Assembly (NCBI GenBank): GCA_030729385.1
Contig: JANQXM010000006.1
Span: 4,835 to 68,834, forward strand
Reading direction: 5' to 3'
Length of the DNA stretch: 64,000 nt
Source of the DNA: Opitutales bacterium
GTDB taxonomy: Bacteria; Verrucomicrobiota; Verrucomicrobiia; Opitutales; Coraliomargaritaceae
Part shown: positions 11,882-27,139 of the stretch, piece after piece
Numbering within the stretch: the first letter of the stretch is position 1
How the letters are laid out: each line of letters begins with the position of its first letter
Made by a program: the position numbers and the translations under genes
The notes under the pieces: model-generated
The model's input: only the letters and a program-made list of their open reading frames with translations
Database searches by the model: none
Told to the model about the DNA's origin: nothing

Positions 11882-12967
11882 CTAGCGGATGGTGATGTAA
11901 GGCTCAATCGGACGATTGCAGTTGGCTGAGGCGACGAAGGTGTCGCGGTCTTCGGTCGAATCGAATAGATAGAGGGCATAGCCACCCCAGCCGCCGCCGA
12001 GGTATTTGCGTCCGATGCAGCCTTTGGCGTCGGGCAGTTCGCGCATGCCTTCGCCAAGTTGGGCTTCGTAGCTGAGTTGCACGGCCTCGCCGAGTTTTAT
12101 TAAGTCGCGGAGAAAGACGCCTTCCTTGGCAGTTTCGCCAGCTTTCTGAATTAGGTCGTAGTCACGATCGTTGTCTGCGTTGGCAGGCGTGTCGTGCGGA
12201 ATATCAGTGTAGTGCAGTGCCATGTGCCCACGTAGGAAATCGCCGTTGCGCTTGAAATGGAGCACGGGCTTTGGGCCGCTACGCCATGCGCAGAGTCCGG
12301 TTTCTCGGATGATGGCGGGATCTTGCCAGCCGACGCCGAGGTTCAATTCGCTTTCGACGCCGTCGTTACCATTGAGCAAAGCCCATGCACCGCTGCCGCC
12401 GAGACCGGATTTTTGTTCGTAGCACCAGTCGGTGAGTGAGACGAGCGGGGAGATCGCACAGTTGACGATGTAGGTGCCTTCGCGAGCAAGGCGTGGCACA
12501 TCGAGCCAGCCGCCGCCGAAATCGACACGTAGTGGCGCATACGCTGGGGTGCGGATATTGCGCACGATCGAGCTGGTGGAAACAGGAGTGAACTGTGGCG
12601 GTGTCTTCGGCAGAATGACGTATTCTGCGCCGACTTCGGCGCACAGCGCTCGTTTAGCCGCACCGTATTGGTCGTCTTCTGTGACAGCTAGTATATCGGG
12701 GCGGATCTTTAAAAAGTGGTCTTTGAAATCAAGTCCGAGGTCCTCGCAATCTCCAATCACGACTTGATCGACGATGTCCAAGCTGGTCATCAGTGCGAGC
12801 TTGTGGTCCTGCGGAATGGAGGTGCGGCGTTTTTTATGCTCCCAGAGAACTTTGTCCGAAGCAAAGCAGACGGTGAGGTGGTCGCCGAGCGCGCGCGCTT
12901 CTTTGAAGAACTGGATGTGCCCGCCGTGGAGGATGTCGTAGCAACCGGAAATAAAGACTTTTTTCAT
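11882..12967 (-). CDS. Fusion of cytidylyltransferase-like nucleotidyltransferase (N-term) and GHMP kinase-like domain (C-term)
   Basis: N-term MKKVFISGCYDILHGGHIQFFKEA (HxGH), then APLRVDFGGGWLDVPR and GLGGSGAW resembling GHMP motifs 1-2, and GGGWGGYA resembling motif 3. Confidence 0.8.
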   Translation of the reverse strand: MKKVFISGCYDILHGGHIQFFKEARALGDHLTVCFASDKVLWEHKKRRTSIPQDHKLALMTSLDIVDQVVIGDCEDLGLDFKDHFLKIRPDILAVTEDDQYGAAKRALCAEVGAEYVILPKTPPQFTPVSTSSIVRNIRTPAYAPLRVDFGGGWLDVPRLAREGTYIVNCAISPLVSLTDWCYEQKSGLGGSGAWALLNGNDGVESELNLGVGWQDPAIIRETGLCAWRSGPKPVLHFKRNGDFLRGHMALHYTDIPHDTPANADNDRDYDLIQKAGETAKEGVFLRDLIKLGEAVQLSYEAQLGEGMRELPDAKGCIGRKYLGGGWGGYALYLFDSTEDRDTFVASANCNRPIEPYITIR

Positions 12968-14829: not shown

Positions 14830-15831
14830 TTACTGTTGCTGTTGTTGCTGCCATTGCCACTGCGTGCGGTCGTATTGAGGCAGGCTGTTGATCTCTTGTG
14901 GTAGCAAAATGTAGGTCTCAAAAATCTGACGGCCGATCTTATTGAACTGCTGTTGGAGTTCGTCGAAGTAGTCGTGATAGCCGATACTTTGCACGCTTTG
15001 GATGTTCGAGAAATTGAGCTGTGCGAGCGTGCTACCAGCGAGGCGTTCCGCCTCGTTGGAAAAGCTGCCGTCGGATGTGCCGGAGATCGAGTGCAGTTGT
15101 TTGTCGATTTGACGTAAACAGAAGCGAACCGAGCGGGGGAATGACGGAGAGAAAAGCAGGAAGTCCACGACGTTTTCTAGTGTGACTTCACCGCGGCTCT
15201 CAGCGCGAAAGGCAGAGAAGGCGGAGCATGAGCGGAGTGCAGACGCGAGCTTGCCGCGATCTGGATCGGACTCGAAAGCGAGCATGTCGAGCACGCGAGT
15301 GGTCTTGTCGGCACGTTCTAGGAAGCGACCTGCTTCGATGAAGTGCCAGCCTTCGTCGTGTAAAATTGTAGCGTTGATCAGACCCGAAAAGAGCATGCAG
15401 GCTTTGATTGTTCTGCGGTAGAAATCCTCGGGTCGATCTTTCCAGAGTGCTTCAGCTTCCTGTGACTGCATGAAGAGATGGAAGCTATTAAGTTCCAGCC
15501 AGATCTCTTCGGAGATTTGGTCACGGACCATACGTGCATTTTCGCGCGCTTGCGCGATGCAGGAACGGATCGAGTCGCCGTCGGATATCGAGAAGGTGAT
15601 AAACCAGTTTACATCAATGTCTTTGCCAGCGGCTTCTTTGGCCTTGTCGTAGTTCTCTTGCGCGGCGGTCGCGTAAAGCAGTGGGTGCCAGAGCGTATCA
15701 TTGCTGCTGCTGGGACTCTCGATGCTGTCGAGATCGGCGTAACGATTGACGGCGACAAGACGTGTTAGATTTTCGGCCCGTTCGAGGTAACGGCTGAGCC
15801 AGTAGAGACTGTTGGCAACGCGTGAAAGCAT
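14830..15831 (-). CDS. Alpha-E domain-containing protein (DUF403)
   Basis: MLSRVANSLYWLSRYLERAENLTRLVAVNRYADLD N-terminal signature. Start placed at the ATG at 15831 rather than the ORF-track start. C-terminal QWQWQQQQQQ tail. Confidence 0.9.
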   Translation of the reverse strand: MLSRVANSLYWLSRYLERAENLTRLVAVNRYADLDSIESPSSSNDTLWHPLLYATAAQENYDKAKEAAGKDIDVNWFITFSISDGDSIRSCIAQARENARMVRDQISEEIWLELNSFHLFMQSQEAEALWKDRPEDFYRRTIKACMLFSGLINATILHDEGWHFIEAGRFLERADKTTRVLDMLAFESDPDRGKLASALRSCSAFSAFRAESRGEVTLENVVDFLLFSPSFPRSVRFCLRQIDKQLHSISGTSDGSFSNEAERLAGSTLAQLNFSNIQSVQSIGYHDYFDELQQQFNKIGRQIFETYILLPQEINSLPQYDRTQWQWQQQQQQ

Positions 15832-15853
15832 AACTGTATAACTTATAGGAGTA

Positions 15854-17308
15854 TTATTTATAGAGCACCCATGTGTCTTTACTGCCGCCGCCTTGGGAGG
15901 AGTTGACAATGAGGGAGCCCTTATTGAGTGCGACGCGTGTCAGGCCGCCGGGTATGATTTCGATTTTGTCGCCATAGAGAATGAATGGGCGTAGGTCGAT
16001 GTGTCTGCCTTCGATGGCATTGTCCTTGCAGATCGTCGGGTGGCGGGAAAGTGAGACCACTGGTTGGGCGATATAGTTGCGCGGGTTTTCTTTAATCTTC
16101 GTGGCAAACTCAGCGCGTTGTGCAGCTGTCGAGCTTGGTCCCATTAGCATCCCGTAGCCGCCAGATTCGTTGGCTGCTTTGACTACGAGACTCTCCAAGT
16201 TATCGAGGATGTATTTACGGTCTTCATCGCGCCATGCGAGATAGGTCGGCACACTTTCGAGGATCGGCTCTTGATCGAGGTAGTATCTGATCATGTCGTC
16301 GACGTAGGCGTAGGTCACCTTGTCGTCAGCAACACCTGTGCCGACGGCATTGGCGAGAGCGACATTGCCGCAAAGGTAAGCTTCCATCAAGCCTGGCACG
16401 CCGAGCATGGAGTCTTTGCGGAAGACACGTGGATCGAGAAAATCGTCATCGAGTCGGCGGTAAATTACATCGACTTGCACGAGTCCGTGAGTCGTGCGCA
16501 TGAACACGTAACCATTGAGGACGATCAAGTCACGACCTTCGACGATCTCGATCCCCATCTTACGAGCGAGGAAAGTATGTTCGAAGTAAGCGCTGTTGTA
16601 GACGCCTGGAGTCAGCAGCGCGCAAACCGGAGTTTGACCCGCACGCGGGGAGAGGTGCTGCATCGTCTTGAGTAGAAGTTCCGGGTAGTTGTCTACCGGG
16701 CGCACGCCGCATTCACGATAGAGTTGAGGAAATGCGCGCTTCATCGCCTCGCGGTTTTCCAATAGGTAGGAAACGCCTGAAGGGCAGCGACCGTTATCTT
16801 CGAGGACGAGATACTTACCTTTGTCGTCGCGAATCAGATCGGTTCCGCAGATTTGGAGATAGATGTCTTTCGGCACGTCGACACCACACATTTCGGGGCG
16901 GTAGTGTGCAGCTTCCTTGACGACGGACTCTGGTATGATGCCGTCTTTGATAATTTTGGCATCGTGATAGATGTCGTTGAGAAAGAGATTAAGCGCGATG
17001 ATACGTTGAGTGAGACCCTGTTCGACAGTTTGCCATTCATCGTTCGGGATGATCCGAGGAATGAGGTCGAAAGGGAAGATCCGCTCGGTGCCCTTGTCGT
17101 CGCCATAAACGGTGAAGGTAATGCCTTGCTCTAGGAACCCGTGGTTCACCAGGCGCTGCTTCTCAATCAACTCTTTCTGTTGAAGGCGCGTAAAACGATT
17201 TTCGAGTAGTTGGTAATGGGGTAGAGAAGTGTTCGAGTCGTTTCCGAACATTTCGTCGAAAAACGCTTCTTTTTGGTAATTTTGGAACATACGAATGAAT
17301 TTGAGCAA
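15854..17308 (-). CDS. Circularly permuted type 2 ATP-grasp protein
   Basis: 484 aa with FDEMFG...[93 protein letters not shown]. Confidence 0.92.
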
Positions 17309-17402
17309 TCCTTATGCCAACTGCGCGGCTCTCTTTAAGGGAAAACGGCTGTCGTGCGTCGATCGGTTGGGGCGGTTTGCTTTGGTTTAGGCGAGGACTT
17401 GA

Positions 17403-18206
17403 TTATGTGTATACTGGTGGTCCATCTATACGAGTGATGTTGATTTCCATCGACTGTAGTTCTACGGGTATACCGAATTGAGTATAGATGGCGACGTCTG
17501 CGGCGTCACGACCATAAGCAATCGCGATACGACCGCCATCGGCATTGTCTTGAGTGGGGTCAAATGTATACCATCGCCCATCGATATAAGCTTCAAACCA
17601 GGCGTGTAGGTCCATCGGGTCGAGCGTCTCCAAATAGCCCACGATCATGCGGGCAGGGATGGAGAGTGCGCGGCAGCAGGCGATGCCGATGTGCGCCATG
17701 TCACGGCAAACCGCGTGTGAGCGTTGGTTGGCTTCGCAGGCGCTAATGATGTCGTTGCCGAGGCCTGGCGCGTAGACGGTGGTATCTCTGATGTAGTCGA
17801 CGATAGCGACGCATTGATCGTAGCCCGGTTCGGCATCGGCGGTGATTTGTGCTGCGAGATCGGTGAAGCGGTCAGATTCGCAATATCGACTCGGGAGCAG
17901 AAACGGAATGGTGCTGTCCGGCAGGTGTTGCACTTCCGTGAAAGGGGCTCCGGGTGCGGTGTCGCAGCCTTCTGCTACCTCGACATCGACGGCAGTGCGT
18001 ATCAAAAAAGGACCTGGTGGCGCGATGAGACGTTGGCAGAGATTGCCGTATGGGTCGGTAAACTCGGTGGCTGGGACGCTAGGAGACAGCACATACTGTT
18101 CACGCCCGACCCATTGCTGCGAGCCGCTGCGCGGCCGGAGCATGAGTATGAAAGAAGTTTCCTCCGGAATATTAAATTCGAGAGAACAATTGGCGTGTAA
18201 CCACAT
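17403..18206 (-). CDS. Transglutaminase-like family protein (module 1)
   Basis: [30 protein letters not shown] ... [23 protein letters not shown] gives a Cys/His/Asp triad. Confidence 0.92.
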
Positions 18207-18407
18207 GGATGCTGAACAGTTGTTTGTGTGCGAGTCGGGTTCTGTGCTGACGAGTTTTTTTGAATTAGCCAGTATAATGCCAAATTATATGTCGATTGCG
18301 ATTTGGTTTCGTGTAATTGAGCTAATGCTTATGCTTACGGCGACTGGTTTTCAGGTATTAAAGAATTGCTTTGATTGCCTCACTTCGATGCACATTGAGC
18401 ACTACTC

Positions 18408-20960
18408 ATGTCGACACACGCCAGTGATATACCAGTTGAACATTTCCGTGATTATCGCGGAGGCGCACAGGATGCTGTGTTTGACGACCAGACTGTGCCT
18501 AGCCCGGATTATGCGCCGATCGTGGATGTGTTGCAGGGCTGCTCGCGCAGCAATCTTAACCTCCGCCAAAAGCGCTTGGACCGTGCGGTAGATGAGCTGG
18601 GCTTGCAATTTTCGGATATGGGCGAAAAGGCGACCCATTCAAATCCTTGGCGCTTGGATTTCTTTCCGCTGGTTCTGCCAGCCGATCAGTGGAAGCGTAT
18701 TTCAGCGGGCGTGGTGCAGCGCGCGCTAGCGTTTAACGCCTATGCAACCGATCTATATGGGCCACAGAAAATTTTGCGTGAGCGTATCGTGCCCCATGAG
18801 GTTGCGTTGAGCGATCCCGCCTTGCTGCGCCAGCTCAGTGGTATCGAAGTGCCGCATGGAGAGTATTCGCAATTTGGTGCGTTTGATCTAGTCGATACGG
18901 GTGGCGGTAATTGGAAGATTGTTGAGCACCACATGGGCACGCCATTTGGGATATCTCATGTCCTGCAAAACCGTCGAGCGCTATCAGAGGCATTTCCGGA
19001 ATTGTATCAGAAAGTCGAAGTCGCCCCGGTCGCTGGCTTCAGCACGTATCTGCTGGAGATGTTACGCGCGCAGTCGAACCAATCGAATCCGCATGTTCTG
19101 CTGTTGACGAGCGGGCAAACGGGGCAGGCCTATTTCGAAGAAGCATTTATCGCGCGCCACATGGGTATCTCGATAGCGCAGCCAGGTGATTTGCTGGTGC
19201 GAGAGAGCCGAGTCTTTTTAAAAACCATTCGCGGATTGGAGCGTGTCGATGTGATTTATCGCCGTGTGGAGAGTTCAGGCTTGGATCCGATCGCAGTGCC
19301 GAATCGTTGGGCAAATGGGGTGCCTGGGCTCATTAACGTGGTGCGTAAAGGTAACGTCGCTATTGTGAATGCACCCGGCGCAGGCGTGACAGATAATCGG
19401 GCTTTGCTGCGATATTCGGACCAGATCATTAAGTATTACTTGCGGCAGGCGCCGATATTGAAATCCGTAGAAACCTTTTTGTTAAGTGACCAAGATCAGC
19501 GAGCGCATGTCGGCGATTACCTTGATGATATGGTCATTAAGCCAGTGCAGGATCATGATGCGCTCTGGCAAAAGTGCGGTGGTAAACGGCCCAATGGTTC
19601 AGCGATTGAGATGGAGCGGTTGGCTAAGCGTTTCCCGAATTATTTTGTCGCACAGCCTTCATTGAACCCGACACAGATGCCGCATTTTAAAGACGGCTCC
19701 TTTTCGCCGCAAGCAGTCCAACTACGCGCGTATTATATTCTCGGTGCGGAGCCGATTGTTTTGCCTGGCGGTATGGCTAGGTTGACCACAGCAACGCATC
19801 GGACGCGTCGCCTGACGATTTCCACAAATGGTCTGAAAGATGTTTGGGTGGCGGACGACCTGGTCGAGGATTCAGAACCCAAACGACGACCAGCCGCGAC
19901 GGGATCTCGCTTTTCGATCGGTAGTCGTGTGGCAGAGTCGCTCTATTGGGCGGGGCGCTATCTCGAACGGGCTGAGAATACCGCACGCCAATTTAACACG
20001 CTTGAGAAATTGCGCTGGGACCAAATGGGCCATGCGGAGCAACAAACATACTGGCCGCTCTTACAGTCAGTAGCCGCTGCAACTGGTCAGACGGCTGTAG
20101 TGAAACTCAAAACGCCACCGCGCGATACGCTCAAGTTATCGCATAGCTTACTGCTGGATATTAATGAAGGGGCCTCGGTGTTTGCCTGTATCCGTTCTGC
20201 GCGTAACGGACTCGAGCACGTCCGCGAAGTCATCAGCCCAGAATGCTGGGAAGTGCTGGAGGAAATGGTGCTCGATTTGCGTCAAGAATCGAAGCTCCGC
20301 GTGACACGTGGTCGACTTCGTTCGCTCAGCGAGAAGGTCGTCAGCGAAGTTGCCCGTTTCAATGGCACCGCCGAGCGCACCTTGTCGCATGACGATAGTT
20401 GGCAGTTTTACCGTGCGGGTGTTTTCTTTGAGCGCGCCTTGGGCGTGCTTTCACTGCTGGAAGTGGCCTTGCCGCGAATCGTTCAGACTTATCAAGCGAA
20501 AGACGAAGAGAGTGCCGACCTAACCGCGCTCTTACGTTTGCTCGGGTCGCTTGATGCGTATCGTCGTGAGTTTCGCTCTCGCGCCTATGTAGATCGCGTG
20601 GCGCGCTTGATAATCCTTGGAAAAAGCCATCCCAGTTCGGTTTCTTTCTGCCTGCGGAATCTGCACTACGTCATCGGCACTTTGTCGATGCATGGGGAGG
20701 GTTCGCAGGGTAAAGAAATTCAAAGTTCGATAACAACGTTGTTGGATTGCTTGGACGACTTTTCGATTACCAAGAGTGAAGGTTCGATGGATGAAATCTC
20801 CAGCCCCGGCTATTCGCTGAGTATCGCGCCAAAGCAGATAGCCCGCGAGCTAACCACCATGACTGAAGAGCTAGGGCTGCTGCACAAGCAAATCGACGAT
20901 GTCTTTTTTAATCACCAAAACATGTTTGCCCGAGAGCCAACGCTCTTCGAGCTGGGTTGA
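18408..20960 (+). CDS. Fusion protein: circularly permuted ATP-grasp domain + alpha-E domain
   Basis: N-terminal half resembles the 15854-17308 product (FDLVDTGGGNWKIVEHHMGTPFGISHVLQNRRALSEAFPELY, VLPGGMARL). C-terminal half begins IGSRVAESLYWAGRYLERAENTARQFNTLEKL, as in alpha-E proteins. Confidence 0.9.
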   Translation: MSTHASDIPVEHFRDYRGGAQDAVFDDQTVPSPDYAPIVDVLQGCSRSNLNLRQKRLDRAVDELGLQFSDMGEKATHSNPWRLDFFPLVLPADQWKRISAGVVQRALAFNAYATDLYGPQKILRERIVPHEVALSDPALLRQLSGIEVPHGEYSQFGAFDLVDTGGGNWKIVEHHMGTPFGISHVLQNRRALSEAFPELYQKVEVAPVAGFSTYLLEMLRAQSNQSNPHVLLLTSGQTGQAYFEEAFIARHMGISIAQPGDLLVRESRVFLKTIRGLERVDVIYRRVESSGLDPIAVPNRWANGVPGLINVVRKGNVAIVNAPGAGVTDNRALLRYSDQIIKYYLRQAPILKSVETFLLSDQDQRAHVGDYLDDMVIKPVQDHDALWQKCGGKRPNGSAIEMERLAKRFPNYFVAQPSLNPTQMPHFKDGSFSPQAVQLRAYYILGAEPIVLPGGMARLTTATHRTRRLTISTNGLKDVWVADDLVEDSEPKRRPAATGSRFSIGSRVAESLYWAGRYLERAENTARQFNTLEKLRWDQMGHAEQQTYWPLLQSVAAATGQTAVVKLKTPPRDTLKLSHSLLLDINEGASVFACIRSARNGLEHVREVISPECWEVLEEMVLDLRQESKLRVTRGRLRSLSEKVVSEVARFNGTAERTLSHDDSWQFYRAGVFFERALGVLSLLEVALPRIVQTYQAKDEESADLTALLRLLGSLDAYRREFRSRAYVDRVARLIILGKSHPSSVSFCLRNLHYVIGTLSMHGEGSQGKEIQSSITTLLDCLDDFSITKSEGSMDEISSPGYSLSIAPKQIARELTTMTEELGLLHKQIDDVFFNHQNMFAREPTLFELG

Positions 20961-21096
20961 GTTGTGAACATTGGGTTCTTTGTGAAATTATGAAAAATCT
21001 CTTACCTTGGTCTTATAGTTGCTGCTCTGCTAATAAGTCTAAACTATATACGACGCCCATTGATTTGGCTGCGTTCTTTGTATAAGCTCACCCGAT

Positions 21097-21972
21097 ATGC
21101 GCTTTCGCGTTTCCCATACTACCCAATATAAATACAGTCAGCCGGCATCTGAGTCCTTTGCCGAGTTGCGCGTGTGGCCGCAGTCGAATAGCTCGCAGCA
21201 AGTGCTTGAGCGTCGCTTGATTTTGAAGCCCGAAGTCGTGGTGGATCACTACGTGGATTATTATGGCAACAACGTGGAATTCTTTTCCGTTCCGTATCGC
21301 CATAATTCGCTGACGGTCACCTCAGTCGCGGAAGTCGAGACGACGAAGATCTCGCCCAGCGAATCCGTTTTAACCACTTCGGTGGGCGAGGCGCGGCAGA
21401 TTTTTAACAGCGCGCGTTATCAGCATTTTGAATTTTTACAGCCCAGTAGCCTGGTCCCCCTAGATCAGCATAAGCGTATTCGTAAGCGTTTCTTTCGACA
21501 AGCCGAAGAGATCGGCAGCGCATTGCTGGCGCTGAATACTTGGATTTATAAAAGCTTCGAATACCAGTCCGGTGTCACAAATATTACGACGCCGATCTCT
21601 CAGATCGTTGCCGAGCGGCGTGGAGTCTGTCAGGATTTCGCGCACCTTATGCTCGCGATTCTTCGTAGTAACGGCATCCCGTCCCGCTACGTGAGTGGTT
21701 ACATCGAAGCCTATGATCCGGATCTCGTAGATCCCGAAATGATCGGTGCAGCCGCGAGCCATGCCTGGGTCGAAGTGTATCTTCCCGGTGGTATGTGGTG
21801 GGGCTTAGATCCGACAAACAATCAAACTGCAGGTGAACGACATGTCGTTGTTGCCGTGGGGAGAGATTACAACGATGTCGCGCCGATGCGCGGCACATTC
21901 AAAGGTGCAAACGACCAGAAACTAAATGTTATGGTGTCACTGGAACGCAAAAAAGAGCCCGCAGCCATATGA
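21097..21972 (+). CDS. Transglutaminase-like family protein (module 2, copy a)
   Basis: MRFRVSHTTQYKYSQPASESFAELRVWPQ; AERRGVCQDFAHLMLAILRSNGIPSRYVSGYIEAY; SHAWVEVYLPGGMWWGLDPTNN. Confidence 0.93.
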   Translation: MRFRVSHTTQYKYSQPASESFAELRVWPQSNSSQQVLERRLILKPEVVVDHYVDYYGNNVEFFSVPYRHNSLTVTSVAEVETTKISPSESVLTTSVGEARQIFNSARYQHFEFLQPSSLVPLDQHKRIRKRFFRQAEEIGSALLALNTWIYKSFEYQSGVTNITTPISQIVAERRGVCQDFAHLMLAILRSNGIPSRYVSGYIEAYDPDLVDPEMIGAAASHAWVEVYLPGGMWWGLDPTNNQTAGERHVVVAVGRDYNDVAPMRGTFKGANDQKLNVMVSLERKKEPAAI

Positions 21973-22865
21973 GAGTTTCAGTCAAACACACCACGCGCCA
22001 TCAATACGATGGTCCAGTTAACTTTAGCGAACATGCTTTGTATTTGCGGCCACTCGACAGCCATCTTCGGCATGTCGAGCAGTTCGCAGTTGAGACGGTT
22101 CCAGCATCCACTCAGCGTTGGGTGCGTGATGCATATGGTAACATCGTGCTCGCTTGTAACTTCGGTTTAAACGAATCGACCGTGCTGGAGTTTGTCACGC
22201 GCATGCAGGTTACGATCACCGACGACAATCCCTTTGATTTCATCCTAGAGTCCTATGCGACTGGTTTCCCTTTTACTTATCAAGAGCCGGAGGCCAAAGC
22301 TTTGCTGCCTTTTCTCGGTAGCAGTGGGCGCACGCCTGGTGCTCTGCGGGTGATGGAATGGGTCCATGGGTCTGCGGGCGCACCAAAGCAGCATTCTGAT
22401 GTGGTGCAGTTTCTCGCCGACCTCAATAGCGCGGTGCATCGCGAGATTGCATACGTGCGGCGCGATGAAGAAGGTATTCAAACTCCGGATACAACTTTGG
22501 AATTAAAAACCGGCTCCTGTCGCGATATGGCAGTGCTCTTTATATCTGCTGTGCGTAAACTCGGGTTTGCGGCTCGCTTTGCAAGTGGTTATTTATTCGA
22601 CCCGCCGGTCGGCGAGGGTGAGCACGCTTTTAATCGAGCGGTGGGATCCATGCATGCCTGGGCAGAGGTATATCTACCTGGAGCTGGGTGGAAGGGCTTT
22701 GACTCGACCAATGGTATCTTGGCCAATAGTTATTTTATTCCTTCTGCGGTCTCACACGATCCGAGTAGTGTGGATCCGATTCAAGGAAAGTATTTTTCAA
22801 ATAAACCCACTAGCTCGACCATGGCGGTTGATCTAATCATTGAGGAAATTAAGGATGCCCCATAA
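21969..22865 (+). CDS. Transglutaminase-like family protein (module 2, copy b)
   Basis: MRVSVKHTTRHQYDGPVNFSEHALYLRP; KTGSCRDMAVLFISAVRKLGFAARFASGYL; MHAWAEVYLPGAGWKGFDSTNG. Overlaps the preceding gene by 4 nt. Confidence 0.93.
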   Translation: MRVSVKHTTRHQYDGPVNFSEHALYLRPLDSHLRHVEQFAVETVPASTQRWVRDAYGNIVLACNFGLNESTVLEFVTRMQVTITDDNPFDFILESYATGFPFTYQEPEAKALLPFLGSSGRTPGALRVMEWVHGSAGAPKQHSDVVQFLADLNSAVHREIAYVRRDEEGIQTPDTTLELKTGSCRDMAVLFISAVRKLGFAARFASGYLFDPPVGEGEHAFNRAVGSMHAWAEVYLPGAGWKGFDSTNGILANSYFIPSAVSHDPSSVDPIQGKYFSNKPTSSTMAVDLIIEEIKDAP

Positions 22866-24975
22866 TCGAGAAGAAATTTTCAAGTGCGCACAAAGCGTTG
22901 AAGCATATTTAGAATCGGAAGGCATCGGTCTGACGATGGGCGGCGAGCCGACCTTTATCGTGCCGAACCCGGAAACGCCCGAGTGGAACACTGCCGCAAT
23001 GGGTCCAGAGAAACTGGGCTACGCCCGTCGAATGACTGCAGAGCTGATTCAAGAGGTGTATCCGCAAGCACTCGCCATGCAGGTCTTTGGTAAGTGGTAT
23101 CCTGGCGAGCCATTACCGCGCTGGAATTTCATGACGCTGCATCATACGCAGACACCGATCTGGCCAGAGACAGAACGTTTGCTGTTTGACGATGTCGTTG
23201 GCTCTAACACCGAGAAGACTGCGGAAGTGGTGATGAAGGCCGTCGCGAAAAAGCTGAAAGTGAGCGCCTCTATTTTGGCGGCCTATGAAGGCGAAGGAAA
23301 ATCAAAGCAAGTCGCTGGATGGGTGCTGCCACTGGATTATGAAGACGGCGAATGGGTCTGCGCTTCGTGGCCGTTTTCGAAGAAACAACCGATCAAACTT
23401 TTTGATGGTGATAGCCCGGTAGGCTTGCGTTTGCCATTAAATGATTTGCCGGAGGATTGTTGCCGGAAGGCACTCACTATCGAAGTGCGCCAAGGCGCGA
23501 TTGAGATTTTCATTCCGCCGCTTGATTGGATTGGCTTTCGAGCTTTGATCGATTTTCTACGCGGCATCGTTGTCGAGTTGGACATCAAAGACATACTATT
23601 TTGCGGCTACGCGCCGACTAAGACGGACGATGATTTGATCACGCTCGGTCTGGCTGCAGACCCGGGTGTTCTAGAAGTCAACGTGCCACCCTCAGATACT
23701 TGGGAGGGCTACGATCGTATTCTCGAACAATGTGCTTCTGCCGCGGCGAAGGTCGGCTTACAGTTAACCAAGTTTCAGCTCAATGGTGTCATTTATGGAA
23801 CCGGTGGCGGCTCGCACCTTGCCTTTGGTGGGCGATCCAAAGAAAGCAATCCATTCATGTTGGAGCCCAAGCGCATCGCGTCTTTGTTGCGCTATTGGCA
23901 GCATCACCCTGCGCTTTCGTATTTGTTTACCGGGCAACATGTCGGACCTGGCAGTCAGGCACCGCGTGTGGATGAAGGTCCGCGCCATGGACTCTACGAG
24001 TTGGAAGTCGCGTGTGAAGGCCTAGAGAATATGAAGGACCTCGTGGATGGTCCATTGATCGACCAATTCTTTAAAAATCTACTGACAGACTCTTCGGGGA
24101 ATACACATAGAGCTGAATTGTGCTTTGATAAATTCCACAACCTTTCGGCGCCAAATGGTTGCTTAGGTATTGTTGAATTTCGCGCGTTCGAAACCTTTCC
24201 CGACCCGAAGACGATGTCGGCCATCGCACTCTTTGTGCGCACCATATTGGCACGCTTGTTTAAAGCACCCTTCAAGGAAGAACTGAAGCGCTTCGGCCCG
24301 GATTTACATGACCGCTACTTTCTGCCCGCTTTCCTATGGGAAGATGTGCAGACGATTTGCGCGGACTTAAAAGAGCATGGTTTTGATTTCGACCCCGAGT
24401 GGTTGCGCCCCGTTCTGGATTTCCGTTGTCCGACTGTGGGCACTTTGGAAGTGGCTGGGGGCAGTGTTGATATTCGGCAGGCCTTCGAGTCGTGGCCATT
24501 GATGGCAGAAGAAAGCCAAGGCGCAGCGACCGTGCGCGTGGTGGATAATTCCAGTGACCGGTTGCAGCTCACACTTTCGGATTCCAGCTTGTTGAAGAAG
24601 GGCAAGCTGCTCGCGAACGGGGTGGAGGTGCCTTTCGAAGAAGTCGATGGGTTTATGATTTGCGGTCTTCGGTATAAGAGCGCGAGCGCGTATCCAGCGC
24701 TGCATCCACATGTGCCGATTCAATCACCACTCTGGTTTGAGTGGGTTGATGCTGAAAGCGGCAAGACCACGCATGCTGGGCGATACTTTTATTGGAACCC
24801 AAACGCCACGATCTACGAAGGTCGCCCGCAAACCATCGAAGAAGCACAGCACCGCCGTGAAGAGCGCAGCCAATCAGCTGATGATTTGATTGGAAGCAAA
24901 CCTGCCGCTATAAAGCCGAAGCTTGCGCCCGAATATAGGCACACCCTCGATCTGCGCCGGCAGTTGGTTGTCTAG
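22855..24975 (+). CDS. DUF2126 (transglutaminase-associated) family protein
   Basis: Long protein directly after the two transglutaminases; GIGLTMGGEPTFIV, GGGSHLAFGGRSKESNPFMLEPKRIASLLRYWQHHPALSYLFTGQHVGPGSQAPRVDEG. Start at MPHNREEIF (22855). Confidence 0.85.
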   Translation: MPHNREEIFKCAQSVEAYLESEGIGLTMGGEPTFIVPNPETPEWNTAAMGPEKLGYARRMTAELIQEVYPQALAMQVFGKWYPGEPLPRWNFMTLHHTQTPIWPETERLLFDDVVGSNTEKTAEVVMKAVAKKLKVSASILAAYEGEGKSKQVAGWVLPLDYEDGEWVCASWPFSKKQPIKLFDGDSPVGLRLPLNDLPEDCCRKALTIEVRQGAIEIFIPPLDWIGFRALIDFLRGIVVELDIKDILFCGYAPTKTDDDLITLGLAADPGVLEVNVPPSDTWEGYDRILEQCASAAAKVGLQLTKFQLNGVIYGTGGGSHLAFGGRSKESNPFMLEPKRIASLLRYWQHHPALSYLFTGQHVGPGSQAPRVDEGPRHGLYELEVACEGLENMKDLVDGPLIDQFFKNLLTDSSGNTHRAELCFDKFHNLSAPNGCLGIVEFRAFETFPDPKTMSAIALFVRTILARLFKAPFKEELKRFGPDLHDRYFLPAFLWEDVQTICADLKEHGFDFDPEWLRPVLDFRCPTVGTLEVAGGSVDIRQAFESWPLMAEESQGAATVRVVDNSSDRLQLTLSDSSLLKKGKLLANGVEVPFEEVDGFMICGLRYKSASAYPALHPHVPIQSPLWFEWVDAESGKTTHAGRYFYWNPNATIYEGRPQTIEEAQHRREERSQSADDLIGSKPAAIKPKLAPEYRHTLDLRRQLVV

Positions 24976-26302: not shown

Positions 26303-27139
26303 TTAAGATTCGTTGCTGAGCGATGTGGCAGTGTGGCGCTTCTCGCCACCTTGGCCGCGACCTTTGCCGCCGCGATTGCCGCCTGGGCGACGACCTTGGC
26401 CGCCACGGTTTTGACCACCACGACGGTTTTGACCGCCACGGCTGTTGTTGTTGCGATTGCCGCCTGTTTTCTTTGGCTGCTCAGGAGTTTTGCCGAAAAG
26501 TTTACCGAAGAACGCACCAATCGCGGCGAATAGACCGCCCTTGCTTTTCTTAGCGGGGGCTTTCTTAGCATTGTTACGAGGTGTGTTGGGCTTGCGCTCT
26601 GCTTTGGCTGGGCGGTTTTTGTCGCGTTCGGCACGGCGGACATCGCGTTCAGCGCGACGCTCAGTAAGTCGGGCTTCGACTGTTGCAATGGCTGCGAGTG
26701 TTTCTGGGCTCGGCTGTGGGTTGCCTACAGGGCGATTTTCGCGGGGCGCCCGTTCTTTGCGTGGTGCACTGCGTTCTGGTTTGTCGGCGCGAGGTTCGCG
26801 ATCTTCGCGAGGCGCCCGAGGTGCTCTTTCAGGGCGAGGTGCACGCGGTTCACGTGAGGCACGTTCCTGAGGAGGCAATGTTTCGGCAGGCTTGCCGCTG
26901 CCGCTTAATTTTTCTTCTTTAAGTGCTTCTGTTGGATCGACGGGGCCCATTTTACCTGTGCTGGCGGAGGCGACTTCTGTTTTGAAGCCACCGCTACGGC
27001 GGCGTGTGCGAGGTTTTGGCGAGGCGTCTGTGCTAGGTGTGTAGCTTTGCGCTTGATTGTTGGTTGGATTGGTTTCTTCGAATTCTGGCATCGGATATGT
27101 GTGTTTATGGTAGTATGGGTCCTCCGCTAGAGCAGTCAT
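26303..27139 (-). CDS. Low-complexity Arg/Pro-rich protein with C-terminal RGG-box-like region
   Basis: ORF contains RRRSGG, APRPERAPRAPREDREPRADKPERSAPRKERAPREN, and GGNRNNNSRGGQNRRGGQNRGGQGRRPGGNRGGKGRGQGG. Confidence 0.7.
   Translation of the reverse strand: MTALAEDPYYHKHTYPMPEFEETNPTNNQAQSYTPSTDASPKPRTRRRSGGFKTEVASASTGKMGPVDPTEALKEEKLSGSGKPAETLPPQERASREPRAPRPERAPRAPREDREPRADKPERSAPRKERAPRENRPVGNPQPSPETLAAIATVEARLTERRAERDVRRAERDKNRPAKAERKPNTPRNNAKKAPAKKSKGGLFAAIGAFFGKLFGKTPEQPKKTGGNRNNNSRGGQNRRGGQNRGGQGRRPGGNRGGKGRGQGGEKRHTATSLSNES

Follow-up and report, generated by a model that had tools for sequence, protein, structure and literature searches.

Inspection of a 64,000-nt stretch of contig JANQXM010000006.1 from an Opitutales bacterium (assembly GCA_030729385.1; the whole stretch is hereafter the window) showed a cluster of seven genes arranged in two divergent modules and flanked by the housekeeping genes coding for RuvB and MurA. 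The minus strand (module A) carries the genes for a transglutaminase-like protein (TG1), a circularly permuted ATP-grasp (AG1) and a stand-alone alpha-E protein (AE1), and the plus strand (module B) those for an ATP-grasp/alpha-E fusion (AG2-AE2), two further transglutaminase-like proteins (TG2 and TG3) and a DUF2126 protein (Table 1). A Pfam profile search of each open reading frame bore out the seven genes, domains and coordinates that an earlier note had read from the letters of the window, with domain matches far above the Pfam cut-offs in all cases; in TG2 and TG3, Bact_transglu_N was matched alongside Transglut_core. The domain set also supports the earlier proposal of a predicted amidoligase system with an unestablished product. 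As judged from sequence, the cluster is a predicted circularly permuted ATP-grasp/alpha-E/transglutaminase/DUF2126 amidoligase system, and an Anbu-less member of that kind. The alpha-E protein AE1 likely starts at the ATG at 15831 rather than at 15909. The start of AG1 is most likely the ATG at 17290 or that at 17251, while that of DUF2126 is most likely the ATG at 22855, which overlaps the preceding stop codon (the TG3 and DUF2126 genes overlap by 11 bases). No signal peptide was evident by eye in the translations, and a cytosolic site was assumed. The source genome assembly has 2.59 Mb and is 99.6% complete. The named relatives are Puniceicoccaceae and Coraliomargarita metagenome-assembled genomes (MAGs) and isolates; the host is therefore an opitutalean verrucomicrobium.

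Table 1. Genes and sequence elements of the seven-gene cluster (positions in the window).
Feature	Position	Strand	Evidence
AE1, stand-alone alpha-E protein, 333 aa	14830..15831	-	Pfam PF04168 1.7e-87; AlphaFold2 (AF2) model
C-terminal glutamine tail of AE1, QWQWQQQQQQ	14833..14862	-	mixed CAA/CAG codons
AG1, circularly permuted ATP-grasp ligase, active-type	15854..17308	-	CP_ATPgrasp_2 PF14403 1.3e-162; 3N6X alignment; motif intact
Sigma-54 (-24/-12) promoter TGGCATAAGGATTGC ahead of AG1	17305..17319	-	site scan
TG1, transglutaminase-like	17403..18206	-	Transglut_core PF01841 5.5e-20; Cys-His-Asp read in translation
Weaker sigma-54-like site TGGCATTATACTGGC, 76 nt upstream of TG1	18268..18282	-	same offset in relative G019
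AG2-AE2, pseudo-ATP-grasp + alpha-E fusion, 850 aa	18408..20960	+	PF14403 4.6e-113; PF04168 7.8e-59; catalytic residues lost
TG2, transglutaminase-like	21097..21972	+	PF01841 2.6e-24; Cys-His-Asp present; 3ISR relative
TG3, transglutaminase-like	21969..22865	+	PF01841 1.9e-17; equals N-terminal domain of long DUF2126 proteins
DUF2126 short form, predicted circularly permuted glutamine-synthetase-like	22855..24975	+	PF09899 1.2e-179; conserved core; AF2 and Foldseek

The residues of the two ATP-grasps were compared in an alignment of 134 ATP-grasp domains. AG1 had all of the residues D, EDN, R, K, GGYG, DLR, N, Q and K intact, and the same set was found, bar one Tyr-to-Phe change, in every stand-alone AG1-type sequence aligned (from Verrucomicrobiota, Gamma-, Beta- and Alphaproteobacteria, Deinococcota, Actinomycetota and Bacteroidota). 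Over its entire length, AG1 aligned with 3N6X, a DUF404/407-type protein of solved structure. Fused-type sequences, including AG2 of the window, without exception lacked the Asn in EDN, the Gly loop and other polar residues, and the metal and nucleotide residues were lost in AG2 and in 58 of 58 sequences of its type. These 58 degenerate ATP-grasps made up one side of a single tree branch, with a support of 1.0. Since the catalytic residues were lost in all fused-type sequences, AG2 was classed as a pseudo-ATP-grasp. The Pfam text on PF04174 is said to mention inactive ATP-grasp forms fused to alpha-E already, so that the degeneracy of AG2 amounts to a confirmation with numbers. The residue analysis ruled out two independent active ligase modules; with AG1 of the active type and AG2 a pseudoenzyme, the predicted ligases of the cluster are therefore AG1 and DUF2126. 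The literature on RloC/RimK-type ATP-grasps was set aside, as it concerns a different ATP-grasp family.

The distribution of the two modules was surveyed in 241 Verrucomicrobiota genomes with a completeness of at least 90% and in 140 Gammaproteobacteria; alpha-E was found in 61 of the former and ATP-grasp in 44 of the latter. The fused module was present in 52 verrucomicrobial genomes, 51 of which also had a stand-alone alpha-E, while the remaining one keeps a fragment of it. Stand-alone alpha-E without the fusion occurred in eight genomes. Among the 44 verrucomicrobial genomes with DUF2126, 43 had the fusion and all had stand-alone alpha-E. As for Gammaproteobacteria, a fused-length ATP-grasp frame was detected in 12 genomes, 12 of 12 with AG1, and AG1 alone in 32. 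This nested occurrence indicates that the pseudo-ligase module relies on the active module and that DUF2126 usually relies on both. It is very improbable that the modules are independent systems that became neighbours by chance. Although they lie apart in about half of the verrucomicrobial genomes that have both, they are within 10 kb of each other in 24 of these 51, and module B without module A was seen in one of 52 genomes (the one with the alpha-E fragment) and in none of the 12 Gammaproteobacteria. The earlier expectation that the seven genes are co-inherited thus held for the modules, but strict adjacency is not kept.

The DUF2126 protein of the window (~706 aa) is missing two internal profile segments of the long form as well as its N-terminally fused transglutaminase; that N-terminal domain corresponds to TG3, here a separate gene. 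In the phylum sample, the short form was found in Opitutales, plus once in the same class, the other members being of the long form of 1100-1200 aa. A core of motifs (GGEPT, GKWYPGE, DPGxxExN, TGGGxH, PRxDE, GNxHRxE and more) was conserved in both forms. The top Foldseek matches of the AF2 model (pLDDT 84.9) all belonged to the glutamine synthetase (GS) superfamily, namely gamma-glutamylmethylamide synthetase (GMAS), YbdK, Dop and GS. Judging from this model, DUF2126 is predicted to be a circularly permuted GS-like ligase with an intact core. Inspection of the translations showed Cys-His-Asp to be present in all three transglutaminase-fold proteins. The description of the locus in the earlier note as an intact two-module version is therefore apt as regards the open frames, the transglutaminase triads, the GS-like core and the co-inherited modules; it fails if taken to mean two copies of one ligase, since AG2 is degenerate.

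Aliiglaciecola lipolytica (NZ_BAEN01000011, L037, 9100-12112) carries a pair of TG3 and DUF2126 genes of the short Opitutales type with 66% identity to the window pair, an apparent case of horizontal transfer between marine phyla. The genome of this bacterium has AG1 elsewhere and no fused ATP-grasp, making it an exception to the nested occurrence. In a genome of the same genus as the source (G010, locus L039), the DUF2126 gene, which lies close to the locus end, is interrupted by an in-frame TGA, and the other cluster genes are not adjacent to it. The system seems to be decaying in this sister species, or the assembly to be faulty there.

The AF2 model of AE1 was all-helical (pLDDT 89.4), and its comparison with PDB structures gave no match below E=0.5. 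In AE2, the alpha-E part of the fusion, the R/W/ER and G-E-R core positions are retained and other residues conserved in stand-alone alpha-E are missing; the ER motifs are conserved in both types. A relationship of alpha-E to HEPN was considered and rejected, the text match concerning DUF4037 and not DUF403.

The AG1 gene, first of the AG1-AE1 pair, is preceded by the -24/-12 site TGGCATAAGGATTGC (17319-17305). Gene starts were scanned for such sites from 200 nt upstream to 60 nt inside the gene, using neighbouring genes as background. In Verrucomicrobiota, a site with at most one mismatch was present at 12 of 36 AG1 genes versus 2 of 270 background genes (p=8.6e-11), and one with at most two mismatches at 25 of 36 versus 13 of 270 (p=6e-19), these p-values treating related genomes as independent. 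For AE1 genes, which follow AG1 and are not first in the operon, a site was found in 1 of 36, and for long TG3-DUF2126 genes in 6 of 13. The source genome encodes RpoN (rpoN) and two true sigma-54 activators, one of them NtrC-like (486 bits, below the TIGR01818 cut-off of 559). Exact TGGCAYN5TTGC sites numbered 26 in this genome, compared with 10 for the reversed pattern. Six of the 24 exact sites examined lay outside genes, ahead of those for a GlnII glutamine synthetase, AG1, glycogen phosphorylase, a nitrate-type ABC operon, glycerate kinase and UrtA. The verrucomicrobial sites agree with the control measured elsewhere: expression of I35_5080-5083 is NtrC-dependent in Burkholderia cenocepacia (PMC5491218), and PP_2685-2688 are induced under nitrogen limitation in Pseudomonas putida (PMC7801951, PMC8050072). 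AG1 of the window is predicted from its promoter motif to belong to a sigma-54/NtrC nitrogen regulon.

The perfect sites ahead of glycogen phosphorylase and glycerate kinase (L168 and L177, own genome) suggest that carbon-store mobilisation is part of the same regulon. The permease of the nitrate-type ABC operon (L170, own genome) contains a long coiled-coil-like insert (residues ~120-320) that lies outside the family models. In Coraliomargarita sp. SDUM461004 (L034, 13636-15168), an NtrC-like sigma-54 response regulator is encoded two genes past DUF2126.

AE1 ends in QWQWQQQQQQ, encoded by mixed CAA and CAG codons; a Gln C-terminus is thus present on a protein of the system. This tail is the only (CAR)5-stop in the whole genome. 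In the 241-genome sample, 11 retrieved loci had a genuine open frame of 300 aa or more with five Gln at its end, and 10 of these frames encoded system components (six AE1 and four TG2); further, unretrieved matches also lay at AE1 ends by coordinate. Of the 36 verrucomicrobial genomes for which the AE1 neighbourhood was retrieved, 20 carried, on a protein of the system, a tail in which at least five of eight residues were Gln, while 0.00 were expected from neighbouring proteins. At a looser threshold of four Gln, tails were detected in 21 genomes, one of them with two, the carriers being AE1 (16), TG (5) and AG1 (1). Tails were sporadic outside the phylum (a Hymenobacter TG, the AG1 of Tsukamurella and Granulosicoccus, a Caballeronia AE1), with less pronounced Q-rich ends in Azospirillum AE1, Sphingomonas AG1 and Sinorhizobium TG. 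The tail thus moves between subunits at about one per system, which suggests a function in trans. A narrow literature search on glutamine tails found nothing.

Two explanations of the tail were weighed. It might be a non-covalent assembly element only (helical or coiled-coil low complexity), or a slippage-prone repeat without chemistry, and this has a substantial though somewhat less than even chance of being correct. Low-complexity tails often mediate assembly, and many homologues have no tail; however, the near-exclusive association of the tail with the system across the phylum, and the switching of the carrier subunit with roughly one tail kept per system, are hard to square with such a role, and the mixed CAA/CAG codons argue against simple single-triplet slippage. 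Alternatively, the AE1 tail might be a covalent substrate, which is a tentative and rather doubtful assignment. Transglutaminases classically use Gln side chains as acyl donors, and Pup and LysW present a C-terminal Gln/Glu to their ligases; a Gln tail nearly exclusive to the system in Verrucomicrobiota would be the kind of substrate naturally expected for its transglutaminase-like enzymes. Together with the sigma-54 context, the AE1 tail provides a concrete candidate, and a physiological setting, for the earlier idea that the cluster could make and process a peptide or tag.

Taken as a whole, the cluster is somewhat more probably than not a cytosolic system for amide ligation and hydrolysis under nitrogen stress, produced as part of a sigma-54 response. 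AG1, with AE1, would form amides through an acyl phosphate, and AG2-AE2 may act as a scaffold or regulator dependent on AG1-AE1. DUF2126 would make or remodel gamma-glutamyl-type amides, and TG1-TG3 would cut or transfer amides through a thioester, releasing ammonia or an amine. Overall, this might serve to capture or recycle nitrogen in times of shortage. More speculatively, the Gln tail could serve the cluster enzymes as a glutaminyl substrate or carrier, in the manner of the C-terminal Gln/Glu of Pup or the Glu of LysW. The cluster would then be a conjugation machine induced by nitrogen starvation and equipped with a built-in tag, this being the subunit-borne Gln tail, which the transglutaminase-like enzymes would deamidate or transamidate and the GS-like and ATP-grasp ligases would load or reload. 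This extended proposal is rather doubtful as it stands; if true, the machine would be a convergent counterpart of Pup/LysW chemistry, and the long-standing question of what alpha-E/DUF2126 clusters do would be answered.

Several observations weigh against the nitrogen-stress amide system and its tag version. The TM-scores of DUF2126 with GS were low (0.18-0.23 over the query), values that a permutation or a partial match would give. The ATP-grasp of an Anbu operon showed only phosphate release from ATP in published assays (PMC6376114). No sigma-54 site was found for module B of the window locus, so that only AG1-AE1 (perhaps TG1) is tied to the regulon, and in Gammaproteobacteria the sigma-54 signal was weak (10 of 35 versus 12 of 96, p=0.03). 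Gln tails were absent or weak in 16 of the 36 verrucomicrobial genomes and in most Gammaproteobacteria, and the tail is therefore not essential everywhere. Finally, the substrate, product and activity of the cluster are all predictions drawn from its genes.

The nitrogen regulon placement would also fit the scavenging of amines or peptides. Here, AG1 and DUF2126 would glutamylate or peptidylate small amines or peptides taken up from outside, and hydrolysis of the adducts by the transglutaminase-like enzymes would yield nitrogen, the Gln tail being incidental or used for docking. The presence of GMAS among the closest structural matches of DUF2126 points the same way, as do the OppA/B/C-like oligopeptide ABC transporter genes directly after DUF2126 in related Opitutales (L048, 12494-15922, and L032) and the dipeptide transporter that B. 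cenocepacia co-regulates with its cluster (PMC5491218). However, the transporter link is confined to one family, the cluster has no amine oxidase, aminotransferase or dehydrogenase to finish the pathway, and the one-per-system Gln tail is left unexplained. Scavenging is thus a possible reading, with a chance of perhaps one third. On the opposite side of the cluster, L058 and L032 have a gene for an oligopeptide-type ABC ATPase or permease.

The domain families of the window locus are those of a known predicted kind of system. In 2009, Iyer et al. reportedly predicted amidoligase neighbourhoods of circularly permuted ATP-grasp, GS-like, alpha-E and transglutaminase proteins. These share with the window locus the same four domain families, the gene associations and the fused inactive ATP-grasp forms; the window locus differs in its two divergent modules, the short DUF2126 with a split-off transglutaminase, the lack of an NTN-hydrolase and the alpha-E Gln tail. 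The Anbu operon (P. putida PP_2685-2688, Yersinia, P. aeruginosa) also has ATP-grasp, alpha-E and transglutaminase genes, whereas the window locus has the additional pseudo-ligase and DUF2126 module and no Anbu. A search for an Anbu or proteasome partner gave no PF00227 match anywhere in the 99.6% complete source genome. The cluster I35_5080-5083 of B. cenocepacia likewise combines ATP-grasp, alpha-E, transglutaminase and a large transglutaminase protein (presumably of the DUF2126 type, by analogy with B. stagnalis) with sigma-54 control. It belongs to another phylum, has the long fused transglutaminase-DUF2126, and its regulation was measured, while that of the window locus is predicted.

In the Pup/PafA/Dop and LysW systems, a carrier or tag with a C-terminal Gln/Glu is worked on by GS-like or ATP-grasp ligases. 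The window locus resembles them in its Gln-ended system protein, AE1, and in the structural proximity of DUF2126 to GMAS, YbdK, Dop and GS; its tail differs in being poly-Gln on a subunit of the enzyme system. No homologues of Pup, PafA, Dop or LysW were seen in the cluster, although no search aimed at them was made. Pupylation-like peptide-tagging of proteins for turnover in nitrogen starvation, a role that Iyer et al. proposed for the Anbu-containing form of the system (as cited in PMC5666114 and PMC6376114), would be compatible with Dop as a top structural match of DUF2126, with the Gln-ended tail and with the nitrogen-starvation context. It is nevertheless an unlikely explanation of the window cluster: the source genome encodes no proteasome-family protein, the cluster has no AAA unfoldase, and no separate small tag gene was identified.

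As far as checked, the new elements are the placement in a sigma-54 nitrogen regulon in Verrucomicrobiota, the numbers for the nested dependency, the short DUF2126 form found split in Opitutales, and the Gln tail. Alpha-E/ATP-grasp/DUF2126 clusters are widespread, and their function has so far come from contextual predictions only. The cross-phylum placement in a nitrogen regulon and the subunit-switching C-terminal Gln tail are two handles that make this function directly testable.

Two other open frames of the window were noted. Adjoining MurA, a 278-aa frame (26303-27139) is highly basic, of RG-/PR-rich low complexity, and matches no Pfam family. At 11882-12967, a predicted protein appears, from inspection of its translation by eye, to combine a cytidylyltransferase-like N-terminus with a GHMP-kinase-like C-terminus.

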